This document shows, piece after piece, positions 3,901-41,738 of a stretch of DNA of 42,318 nt. Every line of letters begins with the position of its first letter. The first letter of the stretch is position 1. Position numbers and translations under genes: made by a program. The notes under the pieces are model-generated. The model ran no database searches, had not been told where the DNA came from, and was given only the letters and a program-made list of their open reading frames with translations. The stretch is taken from contig JASEGU010000009.1 of assembly GCA_030017835.1 (NCBI GenBank), forward strand, positions 5,100 to 47,417. Direction: 5' to 3'. This DNA comes from Actinomycetota bacterium (GTDB lineage: Bacteria > Actinomycetota > Aquicultoria > UBA3085 > Oleimmundimicrobiaceae).

Positions 3901-3921
3901 GCGGGAGATTAAGGGGATAGA

Positions 3922-7525: not shown

Positions 7526-7553
7526 GTTCTTATTTATTCATTTGAGGGTAGCC

Positions 7554-21487: not shown

Positions 21488-23451
21488 GTAAGAAGAGAGA
21501 CGATACCAAGAAGACCAAGAAGACGTATCCCGCGGCGCACCCCAAGACGAGTTGCACCGCGAGTGCCAAGATGATAGATAAGGCCATTGGCGACGGGGTA
21601 TCCACCTCTTTTGAGCGGGCGGGTGAGCTCAAGGTCTGCTCCTTCGGCTCGGGCGGTACCTGTTGTAGGGTCTGTGCCATGGGGCCGTGCCGGGTGACCG
21701 AGAGTAGGACGGGCGTCTGTGGAGCGACCGATACCACCGTTGCGGCCAGGAACTTTGCCCGGATGATAGCGGCCGGCACGGCCGCTCACTCCGATCATGC
21801 TAGAGAGGTCATCTTCACCTTCATCGCGGCTGCCAAAGGGGAGGCCCCTGGCTACGAGATAAAGGATGAGGAGAAACTTAAGAGTCTTGCCCGCGACTTC
21901 GACGTCAAGACCGAAGGCCGAGATAAAAGCGAGATAGCCATCGAGCTCGGCGAGAAGGCCCTTTTGGAGATGAACAGGCAACAGGGTGAGCTGACCCTGC
22001 TCAAAAGAGCCCCCGACAAGAGGCGCGAGGTCTGGAAGAAGGAGGGCCTCTCCCCCCGCGGGGTCGACCGCGAGATTGTGGAGACGATGCACAGGACCAG
22101 CATCGGGGTCGATCAGGATTACGTGAACATTATGGCTCAGGCCTCGAGAACTTCGCTCGCCGATGGCTGGGGAGGCTCAATGCTGGCAACCGAGCTTCAG
22201 GATATCATGTTCGGAACCCCGGTTCCCTTAAGATCCACCGTGAACCTGGGCGTCCTCAAGAAGGATGAGGTCAACATCATCGTCCACGGCCACGAGCCCC
22301 TCATCTCCGAGATGATAGCTGTCGCTGCTCTCGATGAGGGGCTGATAGCCGAGGCCAAAAAGGTTGGGGCCAAGGGGATAAACTTATCTGGCATCTGCTG
22401 CACGGCCAATGAGATATTGATGAGGCGGGCCATCCCGATCGCCGGAGACTTCCTCCAGCAGGAGCTGGCCATCTGCACCGGGGCGGTCGAAACGATGATG
22501 GTCGACGTCCAATGCGTCATGCAGTCGCTCACTCAAGTCGCCTCCTGCTATCATACCGAGGTCATAACCACCTCACCCAGGGCCAAGATAACCGGGGCGA
22601 CCCACATCGAGTTCGATCATCACCGGGGCCTTGAGACGGCCAAGGAGATCGTGAGGCGGGCCATCGCCAACTTCCCCAAACGGGGCAAGGTGGATATACC
22701 AAATGAAGAAATCGAGCTCGTGGCCGGCTTCTCTCACGAGACGATAAATTATATGCTGGGCGGCAAGTTCAGATCATCATACCGTCCCCTAAACGACAAC
22801 ATCATCAATGGTCGCATCAGGGGCGTGGTAGGCGTGGTTGGCTGCAACAACGCCCGGGTTAAGCACAACTTTAGTCACACCACCTTGGTCAAGGAGCTTA
22901 TTGCAAACGATATACTGGTCTTGGTGACTGGTTGTGGGGCCATAAGCTGCGCCAAAGAGGGGCTCCTTCTGCCGGAGGCGGCCAAAATGGCCGGAAGCGG
23001 CCTGGCCGAGGTCTGCGAGGCGGTCGGCATGCCGCCCGTCCTACATATGGGTTCCTGCGTCGATAACAGTCGCATCCTGATTGCCGCCTCCGAGATGGTC
23101 AAGGAGGGCGGCCTCGGCGAGGATATCTCCGAGATCCCGGCGGCCGGCTGCGCGCCCGAATGGATGAGCGAAAAGGCCGTGGCCATCGGACAGTACTTTG
23201 TGGCCAGCGGGGCGATAGTCGGTTTCGGCGTCTCATTCCCCACGGCAAACAGCGAGGTCTTGAGCGACTACCTCTTCGATAAGATAGAGGAGACGACCGG
23301 TGGCAAGTGGCTCTTTGAGCCCGATCCGGTAGAGATGGCCAAAAAGATCATCCAAGCCATCGACGAGCGGCGAAAGGCCCTCGGCATCGACAAAGAGAAA
23401 GAGAGAGTCCTCTACGACATGGAGATGAGGAGGGACCTAAAAATTGTCTAA
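21484..23451 (+). CDS. acsA: Carbon monoxide dehydrogenase catalytic subunit (CODH of CODH/ACS)
   Basis: This Ni-Fe enzyme interconverts CO and CO2 and supplies CO to AcsB. Cysteines for the D- and B-clusters are at the N terminus: Cys52, Cys60, Cys61, Cys64, Cys69 and Cys79 (CCRVCAMGPCRV, GVCGA). C-cluster segments include VHGHEPL (His268) and GICCTANEIL (near 303-312), with VGCNNARVKHN, VTGCGAISC and HMGSCVDNSR further on. The 655-residue length fits AcsA/CooS. It starts with TTG 21484, overlapping the preceding stop, with GGAGG upstream; acsB begins inside its end. The immediate link to the nuo-like genes suggests NAD(P)H-ferredoxin-CO electron traffic (inference). Confidence 0.97.
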   Translation: MSKKRDDTKKTKKTYPAAHPKTSCTASAKMIDKAIGDGVSTSFERAGELKVCSFGSGGTCCRVCAMGPCRVTESRTGVCGATDTTVAARNFARMIAAGTAAHSDHAREVIFTFIAAAKGEAPGYEIKDEEKLKSLARDFDVKTEGRDKSEIAIELGEKALLEMNRQQGELTLLKRAPDKRREVWKKEGLSPRGVDREIVETMHRTSIGVDQDYVNIMAQASRTSLADGWGGSMLATELQDIMFGTPVPLRSTVNLGVLKKDEVNIIVHGHEPLISEMIAVAALDEGLIAEAKKVGAKGINLSGICCTANEILMRRAIPIAGDFLQQELAICTGAVETMMVDVQCVMQSLTQVASCYHTEVITTSPRAKITGATHIEFDHHRGLETAKEIVRRAIANFPKRGKVDIPNEEIELVAGFSHETINYMLGGKFRSSYRPLNDNIINGRIRGVVGVVGCNNARVKHNFSHTTLVKELIANDILVLVTGCGAISCAKEGLLLPEAAKMAGSGLAEVCEAVGMPPVLHMGSCVDNSRILIAASEMVKEGGLGEDISEIPAAGCAPEWMSEKAVAIGQYFVASGAIVGFGVSFPTANSEVLSDYLFDKIEETTGGKWLFEPDPVEMAKKIIQAIDERRKALGIDKEKERVLYDMEMRRDLKIV

Positions 23452-25645
23452 GATAATCGCTTCGGCCGCCATCCGGGGGGCGCACAAGATATTTACGCGG
23501 GCCGAAAAAGAGCTGGCTGCCGCTCTGAACGAATACGGGCTCGACCAGAAGATAGAGCTGCCCAATACCGGCTATTTTCTTCCCGTCATTTTCGGAATGA
23601 CCGGCATCGCCATATCTAAGCTCTCCGATTTTGCCGAGATAATGGATTATATCAAGCGGCTTCTTCCGCCGGTGCCATCCGAAAACGTCCACCTTCCCTA
23701 TCTGGGGGGGGCACTGGACGCCGGCATGGCTACCCTCTTTGCCGACGAGGTGATAGAGGGCATAAAGTACATCAAGGATCCCCCTTATACCATGGGGACC
23801 GAGCCGACCGATGATAACCTATGGCTTGGGGCGGCCGATGACGTAATCATGCGCGAGCGGGGCGTCGAGTTTGTCGACGGCTCGGCTCCCGGTTTTGCTG
23901 CCTGCGTCGGGGCCGCCCCGACAAATGAGATTGCGGTAAAGATCGCCCGCGAGCTTCAGGAGAAGAATATCTACGTTTTCATGTCGGCGGAGGCTGACGG
24001 CAAATCGATGGCTGAGCAACTGGCAGCCGAAGGAGTTCAGATGGGTTGGGAGACCCGCCTGGTTCCCTTCGGCAAGGACATCACCTCAACCATCTTCTCG
24101 CTCGGCTTTGCCACCCGGGCCGCCCTCTCCTTTGGCGGCGTCCAGCCGGGCGACTATCGAAGGGCCCTCTTATATAACAAGAATCGCATCTTCGCCTTCG
24201 TCTTGGCCCTTGGTGAAGTCGACGACGAGAAATATGCTCAAGCGGCCGGAGCCATCAACTTCGGCTTTCCGACGATTGCCGATACCGATATCCCCGAGAT
24301 CTTGCCGACCGGGGTCTGCACCTACGAGCACGTCGTCTCCAGTATCCCCCACGACAAGATGGTCGAAAAAGCGATTGAGGTGAGGGGCCTTAAAGTTCAG
24401 GTGACCAAGATCGATATCCCGGTCGCTTACGGAGCTGCCTTCGAGGGCGAGCGGATAAGGCGCGAGGATACCTACGCCGAATTCGGCGGCCAGAAGACGG
24501 CCGCCTTCGAGTTCTTGAGGACCAAGGAGCTGGAAGAGGTCGAGAACGGCCGAGTCGATGTGGTCGGCAAGGATATAGGCGACATCGAGGCGGGCGAAGT
24601 TTTACCCATCGGCATCGTCGTCGACGTGGCCGGCCGCAAGATGCAGGAAGACTTCGAGTCGGTCTTGGAACGCCAAGTCCACCACATGATAAACGGAGCT
24701 GAGGGCATCTTCCATATGGGCCAGAGGGATATCATCTGGATCAGGATCAGTCGCAAGGCCAAAGAGGCCGGCTTCACCTTCGCACACCTTGGAAAGATCT
24801 TGACGGCCAAGCTTGCCGCCGACTATCCGGCCATCGTCGATAAGGTCCAAGTGACAATCTACACGGATGAGGCCAAGGTCAAGGAGATGCTTTTAGAAGC
24901 TCGGAAGTCCTATGCCGTGCGCGACGAACGAGTCAAAGGCATGACCGACGAAAAAGTCGATGTCTTTTATTCTTGCTCGCTCTGTCAAAGTTTTGCTCCA
25001 AATCATATCTGCATCATCACTCCCGAAAGGCTTGGTCTCTGCGGCGCCTACAACTGGCTCGACGGCAAGGCCGCCTATGAGATCAATCCGACCGGCCCCA
25101 ACCAGCCGATCAAGAAGGGCGACACCATCGACGCGGTCAAGGGCCAATGGAAGGATGTCAACGAATTCATCTTCAGCATGTCTAATCAGTCGATCGAGTC
25201 GTTTAATGCCTACTCAATGATGGAAAACCCCATGACTTCCTGCGGCTGCTTTGAGTGCGTGGTGGCCATCCTGCCGATGGCAAACGGCGTCATGATCGTC
25301 AACCGTGAATTTGCCGGCATGACTCCCTCGGGTATGAAGTTCTCCACCTTGGCCGGAACGGTCGGGGGCGGGGTGCAGCTGCCCGGCTTCATCGGCATCG
25401 GCCGCCAATACATCAGTAGCCGCAAGTTCATCTCGGCCGACGGCGGCTTCATGCGGATCGCCTGGATGCCCAAAGAGCTCAAAGAGAGCTTGCGCTCCGA
25501 GCTTCAACGACGGGCTGACGAAGAGGGCGTGCCGGACTTCTTGGATAAGATCGCCGACGAGACGGTCGGCACCACCGAAGAAGAGGTCGTTGAATTCATG
25601 ACCCGGGTCGGCCACCCGGCCCTAACCATGTACCCGATGTTTTAA
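23444..25645 (+). CDS. acsB: Acetyl-CoA synthase (CODH/ACS alpha subunit)
   Basis: AcsB combines CO, a methyl group from AcsCD and CoA into acetyl-CoA at its Ni-Ni-[4Fe-4S] A-cluster. The ligands are visible: Cys511, Cys514, Cys523 and Cys533, then the Cys600-Gly-Cys602 motif that binds the distal nickel. Their spacing equals that which I recall for Moorella AcsB (506/509/518/528, 595/597). The 733-residue length means the N-terminal CODH-binding domain is present, i.e. the bacterial form and not archaeal CdhC. It starts at TTG 23444, overlapping acsA by 8 nt. Confidence 0.98.
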   Translation: MSKIIASAAIRGAHKIFTRAEKELAAALNEYGLDQKIELPNTGYFLPVIFGMTGIAISKLSDFAEIMDYIKRLLPPVPSENVHLPYLGGALDAGMATLFADEVIEGIKYIKDPPYTMGTEPTDDNLWLGAADDVIMRERGVEFVDGSAPGFAACVGAAPTNEIAVKIARELQEKNIYVFMSAEADGKSMAEQLAAEGVQMGWETRLVPFGKDITSTIFSLGFATRAALSFGGVQPGDYRRALLYNKNRIFAFVLALGEVDDEKYAQAAGAINFGFPTIADTDIPEILPTGVCTYEHVVSSIPHDKMVEKAIEVRGLKVQVTKIDIPVAYGAAFEGERIRREDTYAEFGGQKTAAFEFLRTKELEEVENGRVDVVGKDIGDIEAGEVLPIGIVVDVAGRKMQEDFESVLERQVHHMINGAEGIFHMGQRDIIWIRISRKAKEAGFTFAHLGKILTAKLAADYPAIVDKVQVTIYTDEAKVKEMLLEARKSYAVRDERVKGMTDEKVDVFYSCSLCQSFAPNHICIITPERLGLCGAYNWLDGKAAYEINPTGPNQPIKKGDTIDAVKGQWKDVNEFIFSMSNQSIESFNAYSMMENPMTSCGCFECVVAILPMANGVMIVNREFAGMTPSGMKFSTLAGTVGGGVQLPGFIGIGRQYISSRKFISADGGFMRIAWMPKELKESLRSELQRRADEEGVPDFLDKIADETVGTTEEEVVEFMTRVGHPALTMYPMF

Positions 25646-25738: not shown

Positions 25739-27085
25739 ATGGCTTTAACCGGACTCGATATCTACAAAAAATTGCCCCAAAAGAACTGCGGAGAATGTTC
25801 CATTCCGACATGCCTTGCCTTTGCTATGAAGCTTGCGGCCAGCCAGGCTCAACTCGAAGCCTGTCCTTATGTCTCGGAGGAGACCCGCGCCGAGCTCTCG
25901 GAGGCTTCGGCTCCCCCCATCCGTCTGGTCACCATCGGGGTGGGCGAGAAAGCCCTCAAGGTCGGCGAGGAGGCCGTCCTCTTCAGACACGAAAAGACCT
26001 TCTATCACCAGCCCGGTTTTGCCGTCCTGATCGATGATTCGATGAGCGAGGCCGATGTCGATGCCAAGCTTAGCAGGATTCAAAGCTCTCAGTTTGAGCG
26101 GGTCGGCCAGCTTCTTTCCGCCGACTTGGTGGCCGTAAGGTCGAGCTTAAGCGATGGGGCCAAGTTTACGGCATTGGTCAATAAGGCATCGGAGGCGGGA
26201 TTCCCCTTGGTCATCTTGGCAAATGATCCGGCCGTCGTCAAAGAGGCCCTTGGCAACGTGGCCTCGACTAAACCTCTGATTGGGGTGGCCGATGAAAACA
26301 ATTACGAGGTGATGGCGGCTTTAGCCAAGGAGAGCGGCTGCCCCTTGATCGTCAAAGGGCAAGGTTTGGAAGCCCTTTCCGATCTGGTGGAGAAGGTTTC
26401 CGCCCTCGGCGTCAAGGATATCGTTTTGGACCCCTCTTCCAAGAATATCAAAGAGAGCTTAAAGGATGCCACCTTTATAAGGCGAGCGGCCTTAAAGAAG
26501 AAGTTCAAACCGCTTGGCTATCCCATCATCTCCTTTCCTTGCGATAACTATTCCGACCCAAACATGGAGGCGCTGGCCGCTTCGGTCGCCGTCATGAAGT
26601 ATGCGGGCGTAATAGTCCTCTCCGATCTCGATCCCGAGCGCATCCTTCCCCTCTTCGTGCTGCGCCAGAATATCTACACCGATCCTCAGAAACCGATGCA
26701 GGTCGATGAGGGCATATACAAGGCTGGCGAGCCGGGCGAGGATTCACCGGTCATCATCACCACCAATTTTTCTCTCACCTACTTCACCGTTTTTGGTGAG
26801 GTGGAGGCGAGCAAGGTTGCCACCTGGGTTTGCATCATGGATGTGGAGGGCCTCTCGGTCCTGACCGCCTGGGCGGCTGGAAAGTTCATCGCCGAAAACA
26901 TCGGGCCCTTCATCAAGAGGAGCGGCATCGAGGAGAAGGTTAAACACAGGAAGATAACCATCCCGGGCTATGTCTCCCAAATAAGCGGCGAACTTGCCGA
27001 GGAGCTGCCCGATTGGACCATTGAGGTCGGTCCAAGAGAGGCCGGGGACGTAGCCAAATACCTGAAGGCCTGGAAGGCCTCTTAA
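25739..27085 (+). CDS. acsC: Corrinoid iron-sulfur protein large subunit (CODH/ACS gamma)
   Basis: This is the large, cobalamin-binding subunit of the methyl carrier. The N-terminal [4Fe-4S] motif has Cys17, Cys20, Cys25 and Cys42, the CX2CX4CX16C pattern of the family; this cluster passes electrons to cobalt. A TIM-barrel domain follows, then a C-terminal corrinoid-binding domain (NFSLTYFTVFGEVE, AGKFIAENIGPFIK, TIPGYVSQISGELAEEL). The 448-residue length is typical. AAAGGAGATAG precedes the ATG at 25739. The 93-nt gap after acsB, one of the largest within the block, shows no convincing terminator. Confidence 0.97.
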   Translation: MALTGLDIYKKLPQKNCGECSIPTCLAFAMKLAASQAQLEACPYVSEETRAELSEASAPPIRLVTIGVGEKALKVGEEAVLFRHEKTFYHQPGFAVLIDDSMSEADVDAKLSRIQSSQFERVGQLLSADLVAVRSSLSDGAKFTALVNKASEAGFPLVILANDPAVVKEALGNVASTKPLIGVADENNYEVMAALAKESGCPLIVKGQGLEALSDLVEKVSALGVKDIVLDPSSKNIKESLKDATFIRRAALKKKFKPLGYPIISFPCDNYSDPNMEALAASVAVMKYAGVIVLSDLDPERILPLFVLRQNIYTDPQKPMQVDEGIYKAGEPGEDSPVIITTNFSLTYFTVFGEVEASKVATWVCIMDVEGLSVLTAWAAGKFIAENIGPFIKRSGIEEKVKHRKITIPGYVSQISGELAEELPDWTIEVGPREAGDVAKYLKAWKAS

Positions 27086-27114: not shown

Positions 27115-30100
27115 ATGGTTTTTACATCGGATCGAATCAAGCCGAATAATGTCGCTTTGGTGATCGGGGGAGGCGTGGCCGGAGTCCAAGCCGCCCTCGA
27201 TATGGCCGATTGCGGGGTCAAGGTCCATCTTATCGAGATGAGCCCGGCCATCGGAGGCAAGATGGCTCAACTCGATAAGACCTTCCCTACCAACGATTGC
27301 GCCATGTGCATCCTCGCCCCCAAGCTGGCCCAAGCGGCCCGTCACAGAAACATCGAGCTCCATACCAACTCCCGCCTGATCGATTTGAGCGGCGACCCCG
27401 GCGACTTCAAGGCCAAGGTCAAGGCGAGCCCCCGTTATGTGGATATAAGCAAATGCACTGGCTGCGGGGATTGCGCAAGCGTCTGTCCGGCCGTTGTGGC
27501 CGACTCCTTTGACGAAGGGCTCGGCCAACGTAAGGCGATATACATCCCATATCCCCAAGCTGTGCCGAGAGCCTATGCCATAGACATGAACCATTGCAAG
27601 CGCTGCGGCGCTTGCGCAAAGAAGTGTGGGCCCAAAGCCATAAATTTGGATGATGTGGAAGAGACGCTCGATCTTAAGGCCGACGCCGTTATCATCTCTT
27701 CGGGCTTTAGACTCTTTGACCCCAGCGTCAAAGAGGAATTTGGCTTCGGCCGTTACAAAAATGTTTTGACTCGCATGCAGTTTGAGCGGATGCTGAGCGC
27801 CTCCGGCCCGACGGGCGGCGAGATCGTGCGCCCTTCCGATTCTGCCCATCCCGAAAAGGTCGCCTTCTTGCAGTGCGTCGGCTCAAGAGATAAGGAACAT
27901 AACTACTGCTCCTCCTTCTGCTGTATGTTTGCGACCAAGGAAGCGATCCTGGTCAAGGAGCATCAACCAGAGGCGAAGGCTAAGATATTCTTGAGCGATA
28001 TGCGTGCCTTCGGCAAGGGTTTTGAGGCCTACTATCAGAGGGCCAAGGATAATTATGGGGTCGAGTATGTAAGGTGCAGAGTATCCGGTTTAAAGGAGGA
28101 CCCCATCACCAAGGGTCTCATCATCAAATATGTCACAGGCGATGGCGAGGTTATAGAGGAGGAGTTCGACATGGTCACCCTCTCGGTCGGCGGCGAACCC
28201 TCAAAGAGCATAACCGAGCTTAGCCTAAGGTGGGGCATTGAGCTAGATGAGCACGGTTTTTGCAAGACGGAAAAGTTTGCTCCCTTGAGGACGAGCCGGG
28301 ATGGGGTCTACGTCTGCGGCTCCTTCATCGAGCCGATGGATATCCCAGACAGCGTTATTCAGGCGAGCGGGGCGGCGGCCGAGGCTATGAGCAGAATGAC
28401 CTTGGAGGAGAAGGTTGAATCGGGAGATTATCCGGTCGAGCGGGACATCTCAAGCGAGCCTGCCAAAATCGGGGTCTTCGTCTGCCATTGCGGCTCCAAC
28501 ATAGCCGGAGTAGTCGATGTCAAGAGCGTCGCCGCGCGGGCCAAAGAACTGCCCTTCGTCGTTCACTCTGAAAATCTCCTCTATGCCTGCTCCGAGGATT
28601 CCTTGAAGGTCATAAAGGATAGGATAGAAGGGCTCTCCCTAAACCGGGTCGTTGTGGCCTCCTGCACGCCAAGGACGCACGAAGGACTCTTTCAGGAGAC
28701 GCTTCGCGAATCCAAGCTCAACCCCTTCCTCTTTGAGATGGCCAACATCAGGGACCAATGTTCCTGGGTCCATTCCAAGGAGGCCGAAAAGGCGACCGAA
28801 AAGGCCTTTGAATTGGTCAGGATGGCCGTGGCCAGAGCTGCAAAACTTAAGCCACTTGCCAAGGTCTCCTCTCCCATAAAGAGAAGGGCCCTTGTGGTCG
28901 GGGGGGGAGCGGCCGGCATGACGGCCGCGCTCGGTCTGGCCGAGCAGGGGATAGCGGTCGATCTCGTCGAAAAAGAGGCCGAGCTCGGTGGAAACTTGCG
29001 CTTCATCCGCTATACCTTAGAAGGGGCCGACCCCAAGGCTTATCTGGGTGAATTGATCGAGCGGACGAAGGGGAATGATCTTATAAAGGTCCATTTGAAT
29101 TCCAAGCCGATCAAAAGCTCAGGCTTTGTTGGAAACTTTGTAACCGAAATAATGACCCCCACGGGGCAAGAGAGCATCGAGCACGGCGCCGCCATCATGG
29201 CCATCGGAGCCAGAGCTTATGATGGAGATGAATATCTAAGAGGGTCGAGCGAAAAAGTGGTAAACCAGTTCGAGCTGGAGGCGATCATCGCCGATTCGCC
29301 CGAGCTTCTAAAGGGCGAGCCAAGCGTCGTGATGATTCAGTGTGTTGGCCCCAAAGAGAGGAGCTACTGCAGCCGCCTCTGTTGTTCTACGGCCGTAAAG
29401 AATGCCTTGAAAATAAAAGAGATAAATCCGAGAGCCAACGTCTTTGTCTTATATAAGGATATGCGAACCTTTGGAACGCGCGAGGCCTATTATACCGAGG
29501 CGAGGAGAAAAGGGGTCGTCTTTATCCGCTATAGCGATGATAATCCGCCCAAGGTCCAGCTCGAAGGGGACGGAATAGTCGTTATGACTTTCGATCCCAT
29601 CTTAAAGAGGGAGATCAACATCGCAGCCGACCTCATCGCACTCAGCACGGCGACGGTTCCGCATGCGGATATGGCTCTCATATCATCGATATTTAAGCTC
29701 CCCTTAAGCGAGGACGGTTTCTTCCTGGAGGCCCACATCAAGCTTCGTCCGGTCGACTTTGCCTCGGAGGGCTTCTACCTCTGCGGACTGGCACATTACC
29801 CCAAGTTTATCGAGGAGAGCCTGGCCCAGGCCCAGGCGGCGGTGGCCAGATCGCTTGGGATACTTAAGAAAGACGAGCTGAAACTCGGAGGCATGGTGGC
29901 CAGGGTAGATAAGGATAGATGTATGGCCTGTTTGACTTGCGTTAGGGGCTGCCCCTACTTGGCCCCGGCCGTCGGAGCCGACGGCAAGGTCGAAATAGCG
30001 GCGGCAAGATGTCAGGGCTGCGGGACCTGCGTCGCCGAATGTCCGGGTCGAGCCATCACGCTCGGCCACTATGGGGACGATCAGATAATGGCCGCCCTAA

Positions 30101-30129
30101 ATGCCCTCTTTGAAAGGGAGGTAGTTTGA
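27115..30129 (+). CDS. hdrA: HdrA-like flavin/iron-sulfur electron-bifurcating subunit, long form
   Basis: This 1004-residue protein contains two HdrA-like halves. Residues 15-430 have a FAD fold (GGGVAGVQAALDMA), an NDCAMCILAPKLAQAARH segment and two ferredoxin motifs (CTGCGDCASVCP near 114; CKRCGACAKKCG near 162). The second half starts near 450 with FVCHCGSNIAG, SCTPRTHEGLFQETLRE and a further FAD motif (VVGGGAAGMTAALGLAEQG, near 592), ending with two ferredoxin motifs (about 938-985). HdrA carries the bifurcating flavin in heterodisulfide reductase-type complexes. Next to mvhD, metV, metF and hdrCB it matches the Moorella-type MetVF-HdrABC-MvhD set. The mvhD start overlaps its stop. Confidence 0.93.
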   Translation: MVFTSDRIKPNNVALVIGGGVAGVQAALDMADCGVKVHLIEMSPAIGGKMAQLDKTFPTNDCAMCILAPKLAQAARHRNIELHTNSRLIDLSGDPGDFKAKVKASPRYVDISKCTGCGDCASVCPAVVADSFDEGLGQRKAIYIPYPQAVPRAYAIDMNHCKRCGACAKKCGPKAINLDDVEETLDLKADAVIISSGFRLFDPSVKEEFGFGRYKNVLTRMQFERMLSASGPTGGEIVRPSDSAHPEKVAFLQCVGSRDKEHNYCSSFCCMFATKEAILVKEHQPEAKAKIFLSDMRAFGKGFEAYYQRAKDNYGVEYVRCRVSGLKEDPITKGLIIKYVTGDGEVIEEEFDMVTLSVGGEPSKSITELSLRWGIELDEHGFCKTEKFAPLRTSRDGVYVCGSFIEPMDIPDSVIQASGAAAEAMSRMTLEEKVESGDYPVERDISSEPAKIGVFVCHCGSNIAGVVDVKSVAARAKELPFVVHSENLLYACSEDSLKVIKDRIEGLSLNRVVVASCTPRTHEGLFQETLRESKLNPFLFEMANIRDQCSWVHSKEAEKATEKAFELVRMAVARAAKLKPLAKVSSPIKRRALVVGGGAAGMTAALGLAEQGIAVDLVEKEAELGGNLRFIRYTLEGADPKAYLGELIERTKGNDLIKVHLNSKPIKSSGFVGNFVTEIMTPTGQESIEHGAAIMAIGARAYDGDEYLRGSSEKVVNQFELEAIIADSPELLKGEPSVVMIQCVGPKERSYCSRLCCSTAVKNALKIKEINPRANVFVLYKDMRTFGTREAYYTEARRKGVVFIRYSDDNPPKVQLEGDGIVVMTFDPILKREINIAADLIALSTATVPHADMALISSIFKLPLSEDGFFLEAHIKLRPVDFASEGFYLCGLAHYPKFIEESLAQAQAAVARSLGILKKDELKLGGMVARVDKDRCMACLTCVRGCPYLAPAVGADGKVEIAAARCQGCGTCVAECPGRAITLGHYGDDQIMAALNALFEREVV

Positions 30130-30575: not shown

Positions 30576-31235
30576 TTGATAGTTGCTGAAGCGAAGAGCT
30601 TGGAAAGAATAAAAGATATGCTAAAGGGGCAAAAGAAGGTCCTCGTGGCCGGCTGCAATACCTGCATGGCGGTATGTTTTGCCGGCGGCGAGAAGGAGGC
30701 GGCCGTTTTGGCCACCTCGCTTCGCATGGCCTTCAAGTTTGAAGGGGTCGATATCGAAGTGAGCGAAAAGACGGTTGAGCGCCAGTGTGAAAATGAGTTC
30801 ATCGAGGCCTTAAGGGATGAGGCGGCTGATTTTGACGCCATCCTTTCGCTTGCCTGCGGCGCCGGAGTCAACGCTCTTGCCGACATTTTTGCCGATATTG
30901 TCGTCTATCCGGGGGTCGATACCAAATTCATCGGAGTGACCGAATCGGCCGGGGTCTGGGCTTCTCGCTGCAGCGCTTGTGGCGAGTGCATCCTCGATCA
31001 GACGGCGGGGATCTGTCCGATAAATCGCTGCGCAAAGAGCCTTCTTCATGGTCCTTGCGGCGGGTCCCAGGGCGGTTTTTGTGAGGTGTCGAAAGATATC
31101 CCCTGCGTCTGGCAGCTCATCGTCGATCGCATGAAGAGACTGAATCTTATGGAGAAACTTGGGGGGGTAAGGCCGCCCAAGGATTGGTCGGCCGGCACCA
31201 ACCCAAGCAGAGTCACTAAAGAGGAGAAGGGCTAA
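30576..31235 (+). CDS. metV: MetV, zinc/iron-sulfur partner of methylene-THF reductase
   Basis: This 219-residue protein belongs to the family of methylene-THF reductase C-terminal-type partners found in acetogens. It has LVAGCNTCMAVCFAGGEKEA near residues 25-45 and a Cys-rich C-terminal region (CSACGECILDQTAGICPINRC, then GPCGG), which in MetV holds metal/iron-sulfur centres. It starts at TTG 30576 with AAGGGGG 8 nt upstream. Its stop overlaps the metF start. In Moorella, MetV forms the core of the reductase complex together with MetF and receives electrons from Hdr/Mvh subunits. The same role is inferred here. Confidence 0.92.
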   Translation: MIVAEAKSLERIKDMLKGQKKVLVAGCNTCMAVCFAGGEKEAAVLATSLRMAFKFEGVDIEVSEKTVERQCENEFIEALRDEAADFDAILSLACGAGVNALADIFADIVVYPGVDTKFIGVTESAGVWASRCSACGECILDQTAGICPINRCAKSLLHGPCGGSQGGFCEVSKDIPCVWQLIVDRMKRLNLMEKLGGVRPPKDWSAGTNPSRVTKEEKG

Positions 31236-32158
31236 TGAAGGCAGCCAGCAATTTAGAGAGGATCTTAAGCGAAGGCAAGTTTGCGGTCACGGCCGAACTT
31301 GGCCCCCCCAAGGGAGCAGACGCCGGGAAGGTCAGAGAGAAGGCGCGTCTTCTAAAGGGCTCCTGCGACGCCGCAAATATCACCGATTGCCAGACGGCAA
31401 TCGTCCGCATGAGCTCGATTGCGAGCGGCAAAATAATTATGGACGAGGGCCTTGAGCCGATAGTCCAGATGACGACGAGAGACCGCAACCGGATCGGTCT
31501 CCAGAGCGATCTACTGGGAGCGGCCGCCCTCGGGGTTAAGGACGTCCTCTGCTTGACCGGCGATCACCCCAAATTCGGCAACCATCCCCAAGCCAAACCG
31601 GTTTTTGATCTCGATTCGGCCCAGCTCTCCGTCATGCTGAAAAAGATGCGCGATGAGAAGGTCTTTTTGAACGGCGAGGAGCTGCATGGCGGCCCCGAAT
31701 TTTACATCGGGGCCGTGGCCAACCCCTTTGCCGATCCCTTCGAGTACCGGGCGATGAGGATGGCCAAGAAGATCGAGGCTGGAGCCGATTTCATCCAGAC
31801 TCAGATCATCTACAACATCGATAAGTTTACAGAATGGATGAGCCAGGTCCGTGAGCTTGGCCTCGACAAGAAGATACATATCCTGGCCGGGGTTGCCCCG
31901 GTCAAGTCCGCCGGCATGGCCAAATATATGAAGAAGAACGTTCCCGGCATGGACGTGCCCGATTGGGTCATCGAGCGGATGGAGGCGGCCGGCAAGGAGG
32001 GCGCCAAAGAGGAGGGCATCAAGATCTGCGTCGAGATAATCAACAAGGTCAAAGAGATAGAGGGCGTCCATGGCGTCCACATTATGGCCATCGAATGGGA
32101 AGAGGCGGTTCCGGTCATCGCTGAGGCGGCGCATCTTCTGCCCAGGCCAAAAATATAG
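31235..32158 (+). CDS. metF: 5,10-methylenetetrahydrofolate reductase
   Basis: MetF reduces methylene-THF to methyl-THF, the last folate-bound step before transfer to the corrinoid protein. The 307-residue FAD TIM barrel shows KFAVTAELGPPKGAD at the N terminus, NITDCQTAIVRMS, the segment VQMTTRDRNRIGLQSDLLGA and VLCLTGDHP, and FIQTQIIYN. It begins in a TAATG overlap with metV and has GAGGAG upstream. Genes for HdrA, MvhD, MetV and HdrCB around it suggest that it is part of a large complex, perhaps flavin-bifurcating, rather than a free NADH-dependent enzyme. Confidence 0.96.
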   Translation: MKAASNLERILSEGKFAVTAELGPPKGADAGKVREKARLLKGSCDAANITDCQTAIVRMSSIASGKIIMDEGLEPIVQMTTRDRNRIGLQSDLLGAAALGVKDVLCLTGDHPKFGNHPQAKPVFDLDSAQLSVMLKKMRDEKVFLNGEELHGGPEFYIGAVANPFADPFEYRAMRMAKKIEAGADFIQTQIIYNIDKFTEWMSQVRELGLDKKIHILAGVAPVKSAGMAKYMKKNVPGMDVPDWVIERMEAAGKEGAKEEGIKICVEIINKVKEIEGVHGVHIMAIEWEEAVPVIAEAAHLLPRPKI

Positions 32159-32169
32159 GAGCCAAGTTT

Positions 32170-33582
32170 TTGCAAAGATTTGAGCTTAAAAGAGAGATAA
32201 TTGAAGATATCGAATCCGAGGCGAACTTTTCCATCTCGGTCTGTGCAAGTTGCAATCGCTGCACCTCGGGCTGTCCAGTGGTGGATGAGATGGACTTCAC
32301 TCCGGCCCAGATAATCCGCCTTATTCAACTCGGCGACATTCAGCCTGCCCTCTTGAGCCGGACGATCTGGCTCTGCGCCTCCTGTTCGACCTGCACTTCT
32401 CGCTGTCCGGCCGGGGTTGATGTGGCGAGAGTCATGGATATCTTGAGGGAGCGGGCGCTAAGGAGCGGCGTTAGACCGGCCTTAAAAGAGGTTGCTCTCT
32501 TCAACGAGGTTTCCGTTAAGAGCATCGAGCGCCGTGGCCGCCTCTATGAATTCGGCTCGATGGTCGCCTACAAGCTCAAAAGCGGCGATATCTTCTCCGA
32601 TATCTGGATGGGAATTAAAATGTTTTTGAAGGGCAGGATGAGTCTATTTCCTAGCTCCGCCAATTTTCCGAGCGACCTTTTAAAAGTCGAGAAGGATCCA
32701 CTTGCTAAAGAGAAGATCGCCTATTTCAGTGGTTGTTCGATGCATTCCATCGGCAAGGAACTAAACTCGACGAGCCTAGCCGTTTTAGAAGAATTGGGCA
32801 TCGAAGCTAGCGAGCCGGAAGGCTGGGTCTGCTGTGGGACAACCCCGGCCCACTCCACCTCCCATCTTTTGGCGACGGTATTGCCGGCCAAGAACCTCGC
32901 TCTCATCGAGCGAAAAGGTTATGATTATCTGACCGTCCCCTGTGCCGCCTGCTTCTTTCGCATGAAGGCGGCAGGTCGCGATATGAAAGATGACCCCGGT
33001 CTTAAAGGAAGGGTCGATCAGAAAATCGGCTACTCTTATGGCGGGGGCGTCGAGGTCGATCACCTCCTCACCACCTTGAGCAAGAGGGTTGAAAAAGAGG
33101 AGATAATTTCCAAGGTCAAGAAGCCGTTGGCTGGCCTCAAGGTCGCCTGCTACTATGGCTGTTTCTTGAGCCGGCCGGCCGAGGTTACGGGCTCGGAGCA
33201 TCCCGAATATCCGACCGATATGGATCAGATGATGAGGTTGCTCGGAGCTGAAACGATCGATTGGTCGCATAAGACCGAGTGCTGCGGAGCGGCCCTTTCG
33301 ATGACCAAGAGGGATATGGTCCTAAAGCTATCGGAGAGAATCCTCTCGGAAGCCAAGGCGCTTGGAGCCGATGCCGTCATCACTTCCTGCCCGCTCTGCC
33401 ACGTCAATCTGGACGCAAGGCAGAGCCAGATCAAAAAAAAATTCGGCAAGAAGCTCGATCTGCCCATCCTCTATTTCACCCAGCTTATGGCCCTCTCATT
33501 CGGTTTGGACGAAGGCTCGCTGGGCTTCAAGGCCCACTTCGTCGATCCCGCTCTCCCTTTAAAAAAGAGGGGGCTCTTATGA
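32170..33582 (+). CDS. hdrCB: HdrC-HdrB fusion protein
   Basis: This 470-residue protein joins two heterodisulfide-reductase subunits. The N-terminal HdrC part has two [4Fe-4S] motifs (CASCNRCTSGCP, 25-36; CASCSTCTSRCP, 69-80). The C-terminal HdrB part has two CCG-type domains (CSMHS with WVCCGTT near 220; CYYGC with ECCGAALSMT near 370), which in HdrB bind noncubane [4Fe-4S] clusters. Start: TTG 32170, after AGGAG. In methanogens HdrB reduces CoM-S-S-CoB; here, next to metF, the electron acceptor is more likely methylene-THF through MetFV (inference). A separate hdrB and hdrC is the more common arrangement. Confidence 0.9.
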   Translation: MQRFELKREIIEDIESEANFSISVCASCNRCTSGCPVVDEMDFTPAQIIRLIQLGDIQPALLSRTIWLCASCSTCTSRCPAGVDVARVMDILRERALRSGVRPALKEVALFNEVSVKSIERRGRLYEFGSMVAYKLKSGDIFSDIWMGIKMFLKGRMSLFPSSANFPSDLLKVEKDPLAKEKIAYFSGCSMHSIGKELNSTSLAVLEELGIEASEPEGWVCCGTTPAHSTSHLLATVLPAKNLALIERKGYDYLTVPCAACFFRMKAAGRDMKDDPGLKGRVDQKIGYSYGGGVEVDHLLTTLSKRVEKEEIISKVKKPLAGLKVACYYGCFLSRPAEVTGSEHPEYPTDMDQMMRLLGAETIDWSHKTECCGAALSMTKRDMVLKLSERILSEAKALGADAVITSCPLCHVNLDARQSQIKKKFGKKLDLPILYFTQLMALSFGLDEGSLGFKAHFVDPALPLKKRGLL

Positions 33583-34658
33583 TGGCAGGGCTAGATTTTA
33601 AACCGAAATGTCTGGCCACCACTATCGGTAGCATGCCCCACGTCGATCCAAAGCGTGCCACAGAGGTCATTTTCACTCATACTCCCGATATTCCAACTTG
33701 GCCGCAGCTTCCCCACCTCTCCTTCAAAGAGAGCATGGCCATTCAGGTTAGCGAGGGGATGCCCGGGGTCAGACTGGATGAGGCAAAGGGGACGATCCAC
33801 CTGGATTCGGGCGATTTGGCCTCAAGGGAGCTTGAGCTATTCTATGAACGCTTCATAGAGGACGATATCGATCACTTTGCCATCAGCCCCGAGTATGCTC
33901 AAGGCTTTGAGCCGTTTCTTCAGATGGTCAAGGAGAAGGGGCCAAGCGATATCAGTCTATTAAAAGGCCAACTTATCGGGCCGATAAGCTTCGGGCTGAC
34001 CATAACCGATCAGAGTAAGGCGGCTGTCCTGTATGATGACGCTTTGCGCGACGCCGTCATCAAGACCCTAATCATGAAGGCCAAGTGGCAGAGGAAGAGG
34101 TTCGAGGGGGCGGCCCCCGATGTGGAGAGCGTCATCTTCTTCGACGAGCCCTATCTCCAGTCCTACGGCTCGGCCTATGTAAAACTAAATTTTGATGAGG
34201 TCATCTCGTATTTGAACGAATGCTTTGAGGGTTCGGGAGGACCGTGCGGAGTTCACTGCTGCGGCCGGACCGACTGGGGCCTCCTCATGGAGACAAGCGT
34301 CGATATCATAAGCTTCGATGCCTTCGATCATACCGAGAGCCTGGCTCTCTACCCCAAAAAGATAGACACCTTTCTGGACCGGGGCGGGGTGCTGGCCTTT
34401 GGCATCGTTCCCTCCACCTACCCGACCCCAGAATCGATAGAGGATTTGACCATCCTGACCCTCTTGGAGCGTTTTGAAGGGGCCGTATCACTCCTGGCTA
34501 AAAAGGGGATCGACGAAGGTAAGCTCTTGGAGTCGGCCTTGATCACTCCAAATTGCGGAACCGGCTCGATGAGCGTCCCCTTGGCCGAAAAGAGCATCGA
34601 GTTTGCCGGTCGCCTCTCTCAAGCGGTCAGGGCCAAATATTTTGGGGATGAAGCTTAA
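33579..34658 (+). CDS. Core-MetE-like, folate-domain-lacking methionine synthase/methyltransferase
   Basis: This 359-residue protein resembles only the C-terminal catalytic half of cobalamin-independent methionine synthase (MetE/UROD superfamily). FFDEPYLQ recalls the IDEP motif of MetE. Numbered from the second ATG (33582), His225-x-Cys227 (VHCCGRTDW) and Cys325 (TPNCGTGS) fit the MetE zinc ligands H-x-C and the late Cys; an Asp at about 246 stands where MetE has Glu. The N-terminal folate-binding half is missing. Core-MetE enzymes, described from Dehalococcoides, take methyl from a corrinoid instead, which fits this locus. It overlaps the hdrCB stop by ATGA; ATG 33582 is an alternative start. 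A UROD-like corrinoid methyltransferase is the main alternative. Confidence 0.72.
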   Translation: MMAGLDFKPKCLATTIGSMPHVDPKRATEVIFTHTPDIPTWPQLPHLSFKESMAIQVSEGMPGVRLDEAKGTIHLDSGDLASRELELFYERFIEDDIDHFAISPEYAQGFEPFLQMVKEKGPSDISLLKGQLIGPISFGLTITDQSKAAVLYDDALRDAVIKTLIMKAKWQRKRFEGAAPDVESVIFFDEPYLQSYGSAYVKLNFDEVISYLNECFEGSGGPCGVHCCGRTDWGLLMETSVDIISFDAFDHTESLALYPKKIDTFLDRGGVLAFGIVPSTYPTPESIEDLTILTLLERFEGAVSLLAKKGIDEGKLLESALITPNCGTGSMSVPLAEKSIEFAGRLSQAVRAKYFGDEA

Positions 34659-35456
34659 ATGAAGATAGCCGTAACTGGCAAGGGAGGAGTTGGAAAGTCG
34701 ACTATAGCGGGGGCTTTAGCCAGGCTCTACAAGGATCTCGGGTTCAAAGTCCTGGCCGTCGATGCCGACCCGGACGCCAACTTGGTCTCGGCCATCGGCG
34801 GGGCGGACCAAGACGACAAGATCACTCCCATCTCGAAGATGAAGAATTTGGCCGAGGAGCGAACGGGCGTCAAGCCGGGAACGATCGGCGGAATATTCAA
34901 GTTAAACCCCAAGGTGGATGATCTTCCAGAGACCCTGGCAAAAGACGTGATGGGGGTAAAGGTTTTGGTTCTTGGCGGGGTTGAGGCGGCCGGTTCGGGC
35001 TGCATCTGCCCGGAGAGCGCGCTTTTGAAAAGCCTGGTCAGAAACCTGGTCCTCAAGAGGGAAGAGGTCATCATCATGGACATGGAGGCCGGCATCGAGC
35101 ACCTTGGCCGGGGAACGGCTGCTGGCGTCGATGCCATGCTGATCGTGGTCGATTCCGGAAAGCGCAGTCACAAGACGGCAAAGCGGATAGCCGAACTCGC
35201 TAAGGATATCGGCATCGAAAGGCTCTTCATTCTGGCGAACAAGGTGGAAAAATCAGAAAACTTGGATTGGATCGGCGAGCTCGAAAAGGATATATTAGGC
35301 GGCCAACTCATCGGCATCATCAGCGCAAGCGAAAAGGTGGCCGCCGCAGACATTCAAGGCAGATCACCTTATGATATGGACGCCGACTTTGTTCAAGAGG
35401 TTTCGGCCCTCAAAGAAGAGCTCCAAAAGAGGGTTGAAGGAAAGGGGATTAAATGA
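34659..35456 (+). CDS. cooC: CooC-type nickel-insertion ATPase (copy 2)
   Basis: This 265-residue MinD-like ATPase begins MKIAVTGKGGVGKST with a deviant Walker A motif. The metal-binding CxC is Cys115-Ile-Cys117 in GSGCICPESALL, the form found in classical CooC proteins for CODH, and unlike the GPGCYCYVNN of copy 1. VIIMDMEAGIEHLGRG follows. It starts directly after the core-MetE-like stop (no gap) and is followed by the second nuoE. Two different CooC proteins suggest separate clients such as the CODH C-cluster and the ACS A-cluster, although which serves which is not shown by sequence. Confidence 0.93.
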   Translation: MKIAVTGKGGVGKSTIAGALARLYKDLGFKVLAVDADPDANLVSAIGGADQDDKITPISKMKNLAEERTGVKPGTIGGIFKLNPKVDDLPETLAKDVMGVKVLVLGGVEAAGSGCICPESALLKSLVRNLVLKREEVIIMDMEAGIEHLGRGTAAGVDAMLIVVDSGKRSHKTAKRIAELAKDIGIERLFILANKVEKSENLDWIGELEKDILGGQLIGIISASEKVAAADIQGRSPYDMDADFVQEVSALKEELQKRVEGKGIK

Positions 35457-35996: not shown

Positions 35997-36776
35997 ATGC
36001 TTGTAATTGGAGAGAAGATCAACGTCATGTCGAAGGCGCTCGGCCCGGCTATGAGGGAACGCGATAAGGGACCCATCCAGGAGATGGCGTTGGCCCAGGT
36101 CGAGGTGGGAGCCAACATCTTGGATATCAATATCGGTCCGGCCAGAAAGGACGGTCCCGATGTAATGGAGTGGATAGTCGGCGTCGTCCAGGAGGTGGTC
36201 GATGTGCCCCTCTGTTTGGATACGACCAACGCTTTGGCCATGGAAGCGGGCCTGAAAGTCTGCAAGAAGCAGCCGATCATAAATTCGGCCTCCGGCGAGC
36301 CGGAGCGTCTTGAAACGATGATGACCCTGGCCGCCAAATACGGAGCCTCAGTCATAGGCCTCACAATGACCGAAGTCGGCATCCCCCGCGACGCCAACGA
36401 GAGGATGGCCATTGCCGTCGATATTATGACCAAGATGGCCGAAAAGGGCGTTCCGACCGAGAACCTCTACCTTGACCCCTTGATCCTGCCGGTATCGGTC
36501 GCTCAAGAGCAGGCCACCGAAGGGATAGAGTCGATAAAGCTCTTCAAGCAGCTGAATGATCCACCCCTAAAGACGGTGGTGGGCCTGAGCAATATCTCCA
36601 ACGGGGCGCTTCCCGAGGCCAAGCCGATCTTAGACCGGACCTACCTCGCTATGCTGGCCACTGTCGGCTTGGATGCGGCCATAGCCGATCCGCTCGATAA
36701 AGAACTGATGGAAGCGGTCAAGACTATCAGGATCTTGCGCAACGAGGTCCTCTACTGCCACTCCTTCTTAGATTAG
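35997..36776 (+). CDS. acsE: Methyl-THF:corrinoid iron-sulfur protein methyltransferase
   Basis: AcsE transfers the methyl group from methyl-THF to Co(I) of AcsCD, linking the methyl and carbonyl branches. The 259-residue pterin-binding TIM barrel begins MLVIGEKINVMSK, with LDINIGPARKDG, CLDTTNALAMEAGL, INSASGEPERL and VGLSNISNGALPE, all family signatures; the Asn in GLSN is the conserved catalytic residue. The length agrees with Moorella MeTr (262). GAAAGGGAG precedes the ATG. It lies far (about 9 kb) from acsC and about 20 kb from acsD, between nuoE and nuoF copies. Confidence 0.96.
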   Translation: MLVIGEKINVMSKALGPAMRERDKGPIQEMALAQVEVGANILDINIGPARKDGPDVMEWIVGVVQEVVDVPLCLDTTNALAMEAGLKVCKKQPIINSASGEPERLETMMTLAAKYGASVIGLTMTEVGIPRDANERMAIAVDIMTKMAEKGVPTENLYLDPLILPVSVAQEQATEGIESIKLFKQLNDPPLKTVVGLSNISNGALPEAKPILDRTYLAMLATVGLDAAIADPLDKELMEAVKTIRILRNEVLYCHSFLD

Positions 36777-38611: not shown

Positions 38612-39043
38612 GTGAACGTCAAAGATATCATGACCAAGAATCCCATTTCCATATCCGAGGAGGCGAGTCTCAAAAAGGCGGCCGTCATGCTGAAAGAGGA
38701 GAAGGTCGGCTCCCTCTTGGTCGTGGACTCCAACGGCGATCTTGCCGGTATCATAACCGATCGCATCCTAGTCGTTGACGCCATCGCCAACGGCTTTGAT
38801 TTCAACAAGACTCAAGTCAAGGAGATCATGTACGAGAGCATGGTCTCGGTCACCCCGGACATGGAGGCGACCAAGGCGGCCCGCCTATTGGAGGAGCTTG
38901 AGATAAGATATCTGCCCGTCATGGAGGGCAAGAAAACCGTCGGCATCCTCTCCATCTCGGATCTGGCAAATTTCGTCAAGGACTTCATCGACTGCATCCT
39001 GATAGAACTCGGCGCCCGTGTCGTCAAGAGGAGGATCGGCTAA
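38612..39043 (+). CDS. CBS-domain pair protein
   Basis: This 143-residue protein consists of two CBS motifs and little else: MTKNPISISEEASLKKAA, then GDLAGIITDRILV (first), and MYESMVSVTPDMEATKAA, then KKTVGILSISDLANFV (second). CBS pairs bind adenosine nucleotides or related ligands and regulate partner proteins. The GTG at 38612 has AAGGGAG upstream. It is placed between nuoF copy 2 and fdhA and ends 7 nt before the fdhA ATG, so it is probably cotranslated with formate dehydrogenase. A role as an energy-charge sensor for that complex is a guess from position. Confidence 0.88.
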   Translation: MNVKDIMTKNPISISEEASLKKAAVMLKEEKVGSLLVVDSNGDLAGIITDRILVVDAIANGFDFNKTQVKEIMYESMVSVTPDMEATKAARLLEELEIRYLPVMEGKKTVGILSISDLANFVKDFIDCILIELGARVVKRRIG

Positions 39044-39050
39044 GCCCATC

Positions 39051-41738
39051 ATGACGAAGATCAATCTCACGATAAACGGCAAAAATATAGCGGCCGTGGG
39101 CGGCATGACCATCCTGGAGGCGGCCAAGGGAGCGGATATCGGCATCCCCACCCTCTGCCACGATCCGCGCCTCAAGCCCTATGGGGCTTGCCGCCTCTGC
39201 CTGGTAGAGGTCAAGGGGTCCAAGAAGCCGCTTCTCTCCTGCGCTACCAAAGTGACTGAGGGGATGGAGGTAGAGACGGAGACGCCTGCTCTGCTTCGCA
39301 TCAGAAAGACCCTGGTTGAACTGCTCCTTTCCGACCACAAAATAAACTGCGTCACCTGTGAGAGCTCGGGCCGTTGCAAATTGCAGGACTTGGCCTACGA
39401 GTTTGGGATAGAGGATAATCGCTTCATTGGGGAGAGGAACACTTTTAAAATCGAGGATTTTAACCCCTTGATCGAGCGAGACCCAAGCAAGTGCATCCTC
39501 TGCGGCCGCTGCGTTAGAATCTGCGAAGAGGTTCAACAAGACAGCGTCTATACCTTTGCGGGTCGCAGCTTCAGCACGGTGGTGACGACCCCTTATGATC
39601 GCTCCCTAATTCAGACCAAGTGCGAGCTCTGCGGACAATGCATCTCGGCCTGTCCGACGGCGGCCCTCATCGATAAGACAGCCAAGAATCAGGGCCGGAT
39701 TTGGGAGACGAGCGCCACCAAGACGACCTGCCCCTATTGCGGCTGCGGCTGCGAGCTCGAGCTTCACGTGAAAGACGGGCGCATCGTCCGCGTCTCAGCC
39801 GATGTCCAGAGCGGGGTCAATCGGGGCAACGCCTGCGTCAAGGGGCGCTTTGCCATGGGCTTTGTCAATCACAAGGATAGGCTTAAGAACCCGCTCATCA
39901 GAAAGGACGGCAAGCTTACCGAGGCCACTTTCGATGAGGCGATAGGGCTTATCGCCTCCAAATTGGCCAAAATCAAAGAGGAGAGCGGGCCCGATTCGAT
40001 CGGCGTCTTTGCCTCGGCCAGGTGCACCAATGAGGAGAATTATCTTCTGCAGAAGTTTATCCGGGCGGCGGTTGGCACCAACAACATCGATCACTGCGCC
40101 CGCTTGTGACACGCTCCAACGGTGGCCGGTCTGGCCGCAGCGTTTGGAAGCGGGGCGATGACAAATTCGCTCTCCGATATAGCCCAGTCCGATGTCATCC
40201 TGGTCATGGGCTCAAATACCACCGAGAGCCATCCCATCGTTGCCTTGGAGATCAAGCGGGCAGTCAGTGATTTTGGGGCAAAACTCATCGTCATCGATCC
40301 AAGGCGGATAAGGCTGGCCGATTACGCCGACATCTACCTCTCCCAAAAACCCGGAAGCGACGTGGCCCTCCTTAACGGAATCATGCATGTCATAATCGAA
40401 GAGGGTCTGGCGGATCAGGCCTTCACCTTGGCCAGGTGTGAAGACTTCGAAGCCTTCAAAAGGGCGGTCCGCAAATATACCCCCGAACTTGCTGAGGAGA
40501 TTTCCGGCGTCAAGGCCGATGATATCAGAAGGGTTGCCCGCCTCTTTGGAGCGGCCAAAAACGGGGCCATCTTCTATTGCATGGGCTTAACCCAGCATGT
40601 GACCGGGACGGATAACGTCCTTTCGGTGGCCAATCTGGCCATGCTGACCGGAAACATCGGCCGGCCTGGAACCGGGGTCAATCCTTTGCGCGGTCAGAAC
40701 AACGTCCAGGGCGCCTGCGATATGGGGGCTCTTCCCAACGTCTTTGCAGGCTACCAGAAGGTTAGCGATGAGGCGGCCGCCCAAAAATTCGAATCCGCCT
40801 GGGGGGGGAGCCTCTCCCGCAAAGAGGGCTTGACCGTAACCGAGATGATTTGGGCGGCCGCCTCCGGAGGCATCAAGGCCCTCTATATTATGGGCGAAAA
40901 CCCCATGCTCTCCGATGCCGATACCTCCCACGTCGAAGAGGCCCTAAAGAATCTCGACCTTCTGGTGGTTCAAGATATCTTCTTAACCGAAACCGCCGCT
41001 CTGGCCGACGTGGTTCTGCCGGGGGCAAGCTTTGCCGAAAAGGATGGCACCTTCACCAATACCGAGCGCCGCGTCCAGAGGGTCAGAAGAGCTATCCCAG
41101 TGCTTGGTGGGGCAAAAGAAGACTTAAAGATAATCGCCGATCTCTCGGCGGCCATGGGTTATCCGATGGAGTATGCGAGCGCAAGCGAGATAATGGATGA
41201 GATAGCAAAGCTTACCCCAAGTTACGGCGGCATAAGTTATCAGCGGATTGAAACGGAGGGCCTGCAGTGGCCCTGTCCAAGCCCGGCTCACCCTGGAACC
41301 CCTATCCTTCACACAGAGAAATTTGCTCGGGGCCTGGGCAAATTCCATCCCGTTGAATATAAAGATCCAAACGAGGTCGTCGATGAGGAGTATCCCCTCA
41401 TCCTCACCACGGGCCGCCTCCTTCATCAGTATCATACCGGCACCATGACCAGAAAATCGGAAGCCATCGAGGAGGTCTGCGGGGCGGCCCTTCTTGAAAT
41501 AAACCCCAAGGACGCCGAGAGGCTGGGGGTTGAGAGCGGCGATATGGTCAAGGTAACCTCCAGGCGGGGCAGCGTTGAGATAAAGGCTTGCGTAACCGAG
41601 AAGATTCAAAAAGGCGCCCTCTTTGCCCCCTTCCACTTCAAAGAGTCTCCCATAAACCGGCTGACCAACCCGGCTCTCGACCCGGTTGCCAAGATTCCCG
41701 AATTCAAAGTGGCCGCCGTCAAGGTGGAGAAGGTTTAA
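39051..41738 (+). CDS. fdhA: Formate dehydrogenase catalytic subunit, selenocysteine (Mo/W, NuoG-like N terminus)
   Basis: FdhA reduces CO2 to formate (or the reverse) at a Mo- or W-bis-pterin site. One frame runs from ATG 39051 to TAA 41738, 895 residues, interrupted only by TGA at 40107-40109 (residue 353). HCARL-U-HAPTVAGL is the classic FDH active site, so the UGA encodes selenocysteine, and a strong SECIS hairpin follows. Upstream are [2Fe-2S] (near 36-52), a His-Cys cluster (CVTCESSGRC near 97), two ferredoxin motifs (near 148 and 191) and CPYCGCGC (near 227). NPLRGQNNVQGACDMG and the C-terminal pterin domain are typical. An alternative GTG at 39018 overlaps the CBS gene. Partners are inferred to be NuoE/NuoF copy 2. 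Confidence 0.96.
40107..40151 (+). promoter_or_regulatory. UGA selenocysteine codon and SECIS hairpin of fdhA
   Basis: The UGA (40107-40109) is followed by a two-part stem-loop. A lower stem, GCTCCAAC (40112-40119 region) with GTTTGGAAGC (40142-40151), has single-base bulges. An upper stem GGCC/GGCC (40124-40127 with 40133-40136) closes the loop GGTCT. The 11-nt distance from UGA to the upper region and the GGUCU apical loop closely resemble the E. coli fdhF SECIS as I recall it. Confidence 0.82.

Follow-up and report, generated by a model that had tools for sequence, protein, structure and literature searches.

A stretch of 42,318 nucleotides from an actinobacterial genome (the window) contains a gene whose product we assign to the MesB-type core methionine synthases (core-MetE), an enzyme type already described. 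The mesB-like gene (33579–34658, +; 359 aa), recognised by translation, alignment, tree and AlphaFold model, lies in a Wood-Ljungdahl operon, and it is highly probable that the enzyme takes its methyl group from the corrinoid iron-sulfur protein AcsCD, with methionine synthesis branching off the Wood-Ljungdahl pathway instead of proceeding through MetH or MetE. Family membership, ligand conservation, fold, operon and the absence of other known methionine synthases are established here; zinc binding, catalysis and the role of AcsCD as the physiological donor are what we infer for the window protein.

Translation from 33579 gives an open reading frame starting with MMAGLDFKPK and running for 359 codons to a stop at 34656–34658, which confirmed that the gene is a real open reading frame with correct coordinates. 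Its ATG is located within the final 4 bases of the gene for an HdrC-HdrB-like fused subunit (32170–33582, +), resulting in a 4-base overlap, and is preceded by the purine-rich AAAAAAGAGGGGG. The downstream gene begins at 34659, the base right after the mesB stop codon.

The first-pass annotation had read MetE-type zinc ligands, H-x-C and a distal Cys, from the letters of the gene, and had suspected an Asp at the place of the Glu ligand. Both readings hold in an alignment of 157 rows, which comprised only open reading frames of 300–400 aa and from which L001 and L178 were left out as duplicates. The H-x-C motif is H226-C227-C228 (codons at 34254–34262, +), with the His in all 157 rows and the Cys in 156. 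The fourth zinc ligand, D247 (34317–34319, +), aligns with E665 of E. coli MetE and is Asp in 151 rows, and the distal ligand C326 (34554–34556, +) aligns with E. coli C726 and is Cys in 156. Taken together, the four ligand columns read H-C-D-C in 149 of the 157 rows, as against H-C-E-C in E. coli MetE. Two residues corresponding to homocysteine contacts are also present: S18 (33630–33632, +) aligns with E. coli S433, which contacts the homocysteine carboxylate (Ser in 144 rows), and D189 of the D189-E190-P191 segment (34143–34151, +) aligns with E. coli D599, which contacts the amino group (Asp in 156 rows). The alignment between E. coli MetE and the window protein is loose at 19.8% identity, and E. 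coli C643 falls in a gap column, which we take to be an alignment flaw at such a low identity. These ligands bear on the idea that the protein might be a non-catalytic or regulatory homolog resembling the MesB-like proteins of Chloroflexales, which have been described as lacking the zinc ligands (Price 2021, PMC7857596). Such homologs are thus on record, and some distant actinobacterial relatives lack the Asp (HCPC, HCTC); however, the full ligand set is present in the window protein, and no second known methionine synthase is encoded in its genome, making a non-catalytic role very improbable.

The window protein has no Pfam match even at E ≤ 10 and no NCBIfam match, and neither two Dehalococcoidales relatives nor one Methanomassiliicoccaceae relative has any Pfam match. 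Its identity therefore rests on the comparison of family and structure. Among the members of alignment A2, 7 of 17 match the NCBIfam model PRK00957 "methionine synthase" (best E 2.6e-12). Relatives at E ≤ 0.001 occur in 86 of the 296 genomes of the phylum, which rules out a chance open reading frame; three of these relatives are in the same family, with 63–65% identity. A DNA motif for HCCG[N/K]TDW, itself taken from the alignment, was found in at least 119 named loci, and all 119 encode a relative; among the matches listed, these loci include members from Dehalococcoidia, Methanomassiliicoccales, Omnitrophota, Thermodesulfobacteriota, Planctomycetota and Bacillota. In a tree built by a quick method from 106 of the 157 alignment rows, a fork of 67 rows with 95% SH-aLRT support unites the window protein with proteins from Dehalococcoidia and Methanomassiliicoccales. 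Since 40 of the 102 inner branches are open, the tree does not fix which group is sister to the window clade beyond its family.

Two further groups of relatives were noticed. A second actinobacterial paralog clade (L043, L044, L045, L046, L057 and L058) shows about 29–34% identity to the window protein, and its aligned members have TCC at the distal Cys, with Asn replacing the Asp ligand in two of the six (L044 and L045). Five of the six genomes with this paralog also have the main gene, and for G078 the paralog alone is listed. In a Bacteriovoracaceae locus (L174:3079-7717) and a Myxococcaceae locus (L165:1126-5846), the gene directly after that of a complete five-domain MetH encodes a distant relative of the window protein (106 bits in the former, 109 bits in the latter).

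The AlphaFold2 model of the window protein, built from a 17-row alignment, has a mean pLDDT of 93.0 and a pTM of 0.92. Of the structures compared, MesD (3rpd) scores highest with Z 25.4, alongside the catalytic halves of MetE at Z 23–25, and the model aligns with the C-terminal half of MetE (residues 386–733 in T. maritima), while a few chains were aligned via the homologous N-terminal half. The folate-binding half, absent according to the first-pass annotation, is indeed missing from this protein of 359 aa. A split or tandem MetE was ruled out as well, because neither the genome nor the protein has a PF01717 match, and because of the length and the lack of a folate half. Searching the PDB with the single window sequence gave a best E of 0.97, which is meaningless, but a profile of 24 family rows retrieved MesD (3rpd) with E 1.2e-5 and, more weakly, MetE chains (E 0.018–0.6).

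The same (beta/alpha)8 superfamily fold is found in UROD and in the methyltransferase of M. mazei (4ay7), which match the model with Z 18–21, and clustering with UROD-type decarboxylases or MtaA/MtbA methyltransferases had been named beforehand as a result that would refute a methionine synthase. On the strength of the fold, the window protein could be an MtaA/MtbA-type methyltransferase of the UROD superfamily with a different thiol as substrate, or else a decarboxylase. Despite the single superfamily fold, the higher Z-scores for MesD and MetE favour the MetE-like reading, and Foldseek likewise placed MetE and MesD chains on top and listed the M. mazei protein and UROD with its weaker hits. 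Neither the protein nor its genome has a match to URO-D (PF01208; the control was positive in 8 of 14), and S18 and D189 are in place for homocysteine. We rejected a UROD/MtaA-type enzyme on the absence of the Pfam domain in protein and genome and on the lower Z-scores, and consider the chance that it applies to be very slight.

Among characterised proteins, the MesB-type window protein is best compared with cbdbA481 of D. mccartyi CBDB1 (343 aa), which forms methionine from methylcobalamin and homocysteine, has zinc modelled at His215, Cys217, Asp236 and Cys312, and is encoded in an operon including SAM synthetase and S-adenosylhomocysteinase (Deobald 2020, PMC7005905). We used a Dehalococcoidales protein (L139:1290-2318) as a stand-in for DET0516/cbdbA481. 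Its ligands H215, C217, D236 and C312 have exactly the published cbdbA481 numbers, and genes for S-adenosylhomocysteinase and SAM synthetase follow it on the same strand in one gene run, so it was taken as an ortholog of cbdbA481. Aligned with the window protein, it gives 302.8 bits and 43.7% identity. The window protein and D. mccartyi MesB (cbdbA481, DET0516) are of the same length class (359 vs 343 aa; the Mes families are described as ≤386 aa, PMC7857596), lack the folate half, and share the H-x-C/Asp/Cys set with a step of +21 from His to Asp. Both genomes have AcsCD and neither MetE nor MetH, and AcsCD is the proposed donor in both (PMC7005905, PMC7857596). On the other hand, the genome of the window also has CODH, AcsE and MetVF, which D. 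mccartyi lacks according to these two papers, and the window gene is found in an acs/hdr operon, whereas cbdbA481 is part of a SAM-cycle operon.

The MesB proteins of Methanomassiliicoccales belong to the same tree fork as the window protein and are encoded next to genes for AcsB, AcsC, AcsD, CooC and RACo, but they are archaeal and their gene order is not alike. MesD (3RPD), the top structural match, shares only 17% identity with the window protein in the structural alignment and is described as requiring MesX and oxygen (PMC7857596). The window protein has Asp (D247) where MesD has Glu, as we read that paper, which names Asp only for the characterised MesB. With MetE, a tandem repeat, the window protein shares the fold and the zinc site of the catalytic half, but it has neither the N-terminal folate half nor a PF01717 match.

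The first-pass annotation had placed the gene among corrinoid genes, and the operon around it is a Wood-Ljungdahl cluster containing AcsC, AcsD and AcsE. The order of the products is Fhs, RACo, a CooC-like ATPase, FolD, AcsD, NADH-dehydrogenase-like subunits, AcsA, AcsB and AcsC, followed by HdrA, MvhD, MetV, MetF, HdrCB, MesB, a second CooC-like ATPase, AcsE and formate dehydrogenase. All on the forward strand, the small subunit of the corrinoid iron-sulfur protein (AcsD/CdhD) is encoded at 15065–16003, AcsA (CODH) at 21484–23451 and AcsB (acetyl-CoA synthase) at 23444–25645, and the large subunit AcsC, belonging to the proposed methyl donor, at 25739–27085. MetV (30576–31235) and MetF (31235–32158), for methyl-THF formation, precede mesB, and the CooC/CbiA-type ATPase (34659–35456) immediately 3' of it is followed by AcsE, the methyl-THF:corrinoid protein methyltransferase (35997–36776). 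Aspartokinase and aspartate-semialdehyde dehydrogenase (2674–4938, +), for homocysteine supply, are also encoded in the window. The window had no Rfam match at gathering thresholds and hence no recognised cobalamin or SAM riboswitch.

Parts of this arrangement recur in other genomes. HdrCB is directly upstream of the gene in all three loci of the same family, and the same CooC-like gene is downstream in two, with the contig ending in the third. Elsewhere among actinobacterial loci, the order is MetV-MetF-mesB-AcsE (L022, L025, L031, L056 and L158 are examples). AcsB, AcsC or AcsD is near the gene in Methanomassiliicoccales and their relatives (L081, L085, L094, L123 and L129), and AcsA and CooC are near it in loci of Bryobacterales and Clostridia. 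Several families of the same class (f2, f3, f6 and f8) have no Wood-Ljungdahl gene within about 1.5 kb, and many loci from other phyla have no Wood-Ljungdahl neighbours in their 3.5–8 kb.

Other genes of the window deserve mention in their own right. The formate dehydrogenase gene (39018–41738, +) is interrupted by an in-frame TGA at 40107–40109 in the context CARL*HAPTVAGLA, a motif that we take to resemble a selenocysteine codon; 39018–40109 and 40122–41738 would thus probably encode a single FdhA-type protein. At 5529–7355 (+), an iron-only hydrogenase large-subunit domain (PF02906) is fused to a diguanylate cyclase domain of the GGDEF type (PF00990). Genes for a GAF histidine kinase (7524–8894) and a LytTR response regulator (8869–9606) come next, and the three, which lie upstream of the Wood-Ljungdahl operon, could form a unit that senses H2 or redox state. 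The HdrA-like protein (27115–30129, +) has 1004 aa, apparently with one FAD-binding region near residue 15 and another near residue 590, and together with the fused HdrC-HdrB it seems to form a rearranged heterodisulfide-reductase-like module beside MetVF.

HcyBio, together with aspartokinase and aspartate-semialdehyde dehydrogenase, would provide a route to homocysteine. The assembly containing the window (1.31 Mb in 74 contigs, listed as 100% complete) encodes the homocysteine-forming HcyBio (PF01837, E 4.6e-154) besides AcsC, AcsD and AcsE. A check of the genome for metE and metH, suggested by the first-pass annotation, revealed neither the MetE catalytic domain PF01717 nor the homocysteine S-methyltransferase domain PF02574. 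The latter absence implies that there is no MetH, whose presence, coupled with a lack of homocysteine activity, had been the other refuting result named in the first-pass annotation. The MtaC/MetH-type B12-binding cap domain PF02607 is likewise absent from the genome, and a MetH elsewhere in it was ruled out by the lack of both PF02574 and PF02607. No known type of methionine synthase other than MesB was therefore found in this genome. With PF02607 absent and the sole PF02310 protein of the radical-SAM type, the same holds for AcsCD among known types of corrinoid protein that carry methyl groups.

This inventory also bears on the choice between AcsCD and other donors. The protein might be a core methionine synthase that uses another corrinoid protein or free methylcobalamin, given that the characterised relative is active in vitro with free methylcobalamin (PMC7005905) and that other corrinoid proteins have been suggested for some paralogs (Price 2021, PMC7857596). 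Yet the genome offers no PF02607 protein, its lone PF02310 protein also has a radical SAM domain, and the gene is located within the operon of AcsC, AcsD and AcsE and co-occurs with CdhD, so we regard such a donor as unlikely. With no MetE, MetH, UROD or MtaC-type corrinoid protein, and with AcsC, AcsD, AcsE and HcyBio present, methyl-AcsCD is the likely donor.

Co-occurrence was analysed across 296 genomes of the phylum with cut-offs of E < 1e-33 for the core gene and E < 1e-30 for CdhD. The core gene is present in 58 genomes and strong CdhD in 78, with both in 55 (odds ratio 171; Fisher p 2.6e-37, shared ancestry ignored). The 58 genomes span 21 family codes, as counted by eye, and three of them have no strong CdhD (G078, G178 and G207). 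Within the CdhD-positive set of 78, 1 of the 55 genomes with the core gene has PF02574 vs 13 of the 23 without the gene (p 6e-8, shared ancestry ignored); the domain is present in 193 of the 215 genomes that have neither the core gene nor CdhD. Below the core cut-off are G185 (E 7.8e-31, a partial gene, PF02574-positive) and G059 and G295 (short stretches, E 1.1e-5 and 2e-4), and if all three are moved to the core-positive group, the PF02574 counts become 2 of 58 vs 12 of 20. In two core-positive genomes, G143 and G218, PF01717 is matched only weakly (E 4.7e-4 and 3.1e-4), perhaps by the core gene itself. Ten CdhD genomes have neither a full core gene nor PF02574 nor PF01717 (G030, G033, G059, G081, G104, G221, G222, G252, G262 and G295), which may reflect assembly gaps, auxotrophy or a further type of methionine synthase in the phylum.

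The proposal of AcsCD as the methyl donor, already made in the first-pass annotation, thus gains support from exclusion, co-occurrence and neighbourhood. In the mechanism that we envisage, H226, C228, D247 and C326 would coordinate a zinc ion to which homocysteine binds as the thiolate, and S18 and D189 would grip the amino-acid end of the substrate. The thiolate would attack the methyl-Co(III) corrinoid of AcsCD, yielding methionine and Co(I)-AcsCD, which AcsE could re-methylate with methyl-THF from MetVF. Methionine synthesis would leave the acetate-forming pathway at AcsCD, replacing MetH or MetE. Direct transfer from AcsCD to homocysteine was proposed by Deobald 2020 (PMC7005905), and AcsCD was predicted as the donor for most proteins of the MesB family by Price 2021 (PMC7857596). 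We found no experimental proof of this transfer in the open-licence literature; PMC13059711 (2026) uses the family names, and its consulted portion contains no test of the AcsCD transfer.

The same reading, including the Asp ligand and the AcsCD donor hypothesis, is already in PMC7005905 (2020) and PMC7857596 (2021). The window gene is a new example of a known, earlier predicted arrangement rather than a new kind of enzyme, and it adds a clear actinobacterial case. The libraries of Pfam and NCBIfam would leave the protein unnamed, and the exchange of mesB for metH, extended here to many actinobacterial families, provides a useful annotation rule. The genome is a clean test case, having a full Wood-Ljungdahl pathway, mesB in the operon, no MetE or MetH, and AcsCD as the sole methyl-carrying corrinoid protein found. 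For a broad set of acetogenic-type Actinomycetota (the 58 genomes with the gene, in 21 family codes), we consider it an even call that AcsCD has taken over the donor role in place of MetH. Every methyl group of SAM would then come from the very corrinoid that supplies acetyl-CoA synthase, MesB would be a dedicated partner of AcsCD beside AcsE, AcsB and the reactivase, and the gain of mesB might have made MetH dispensable.
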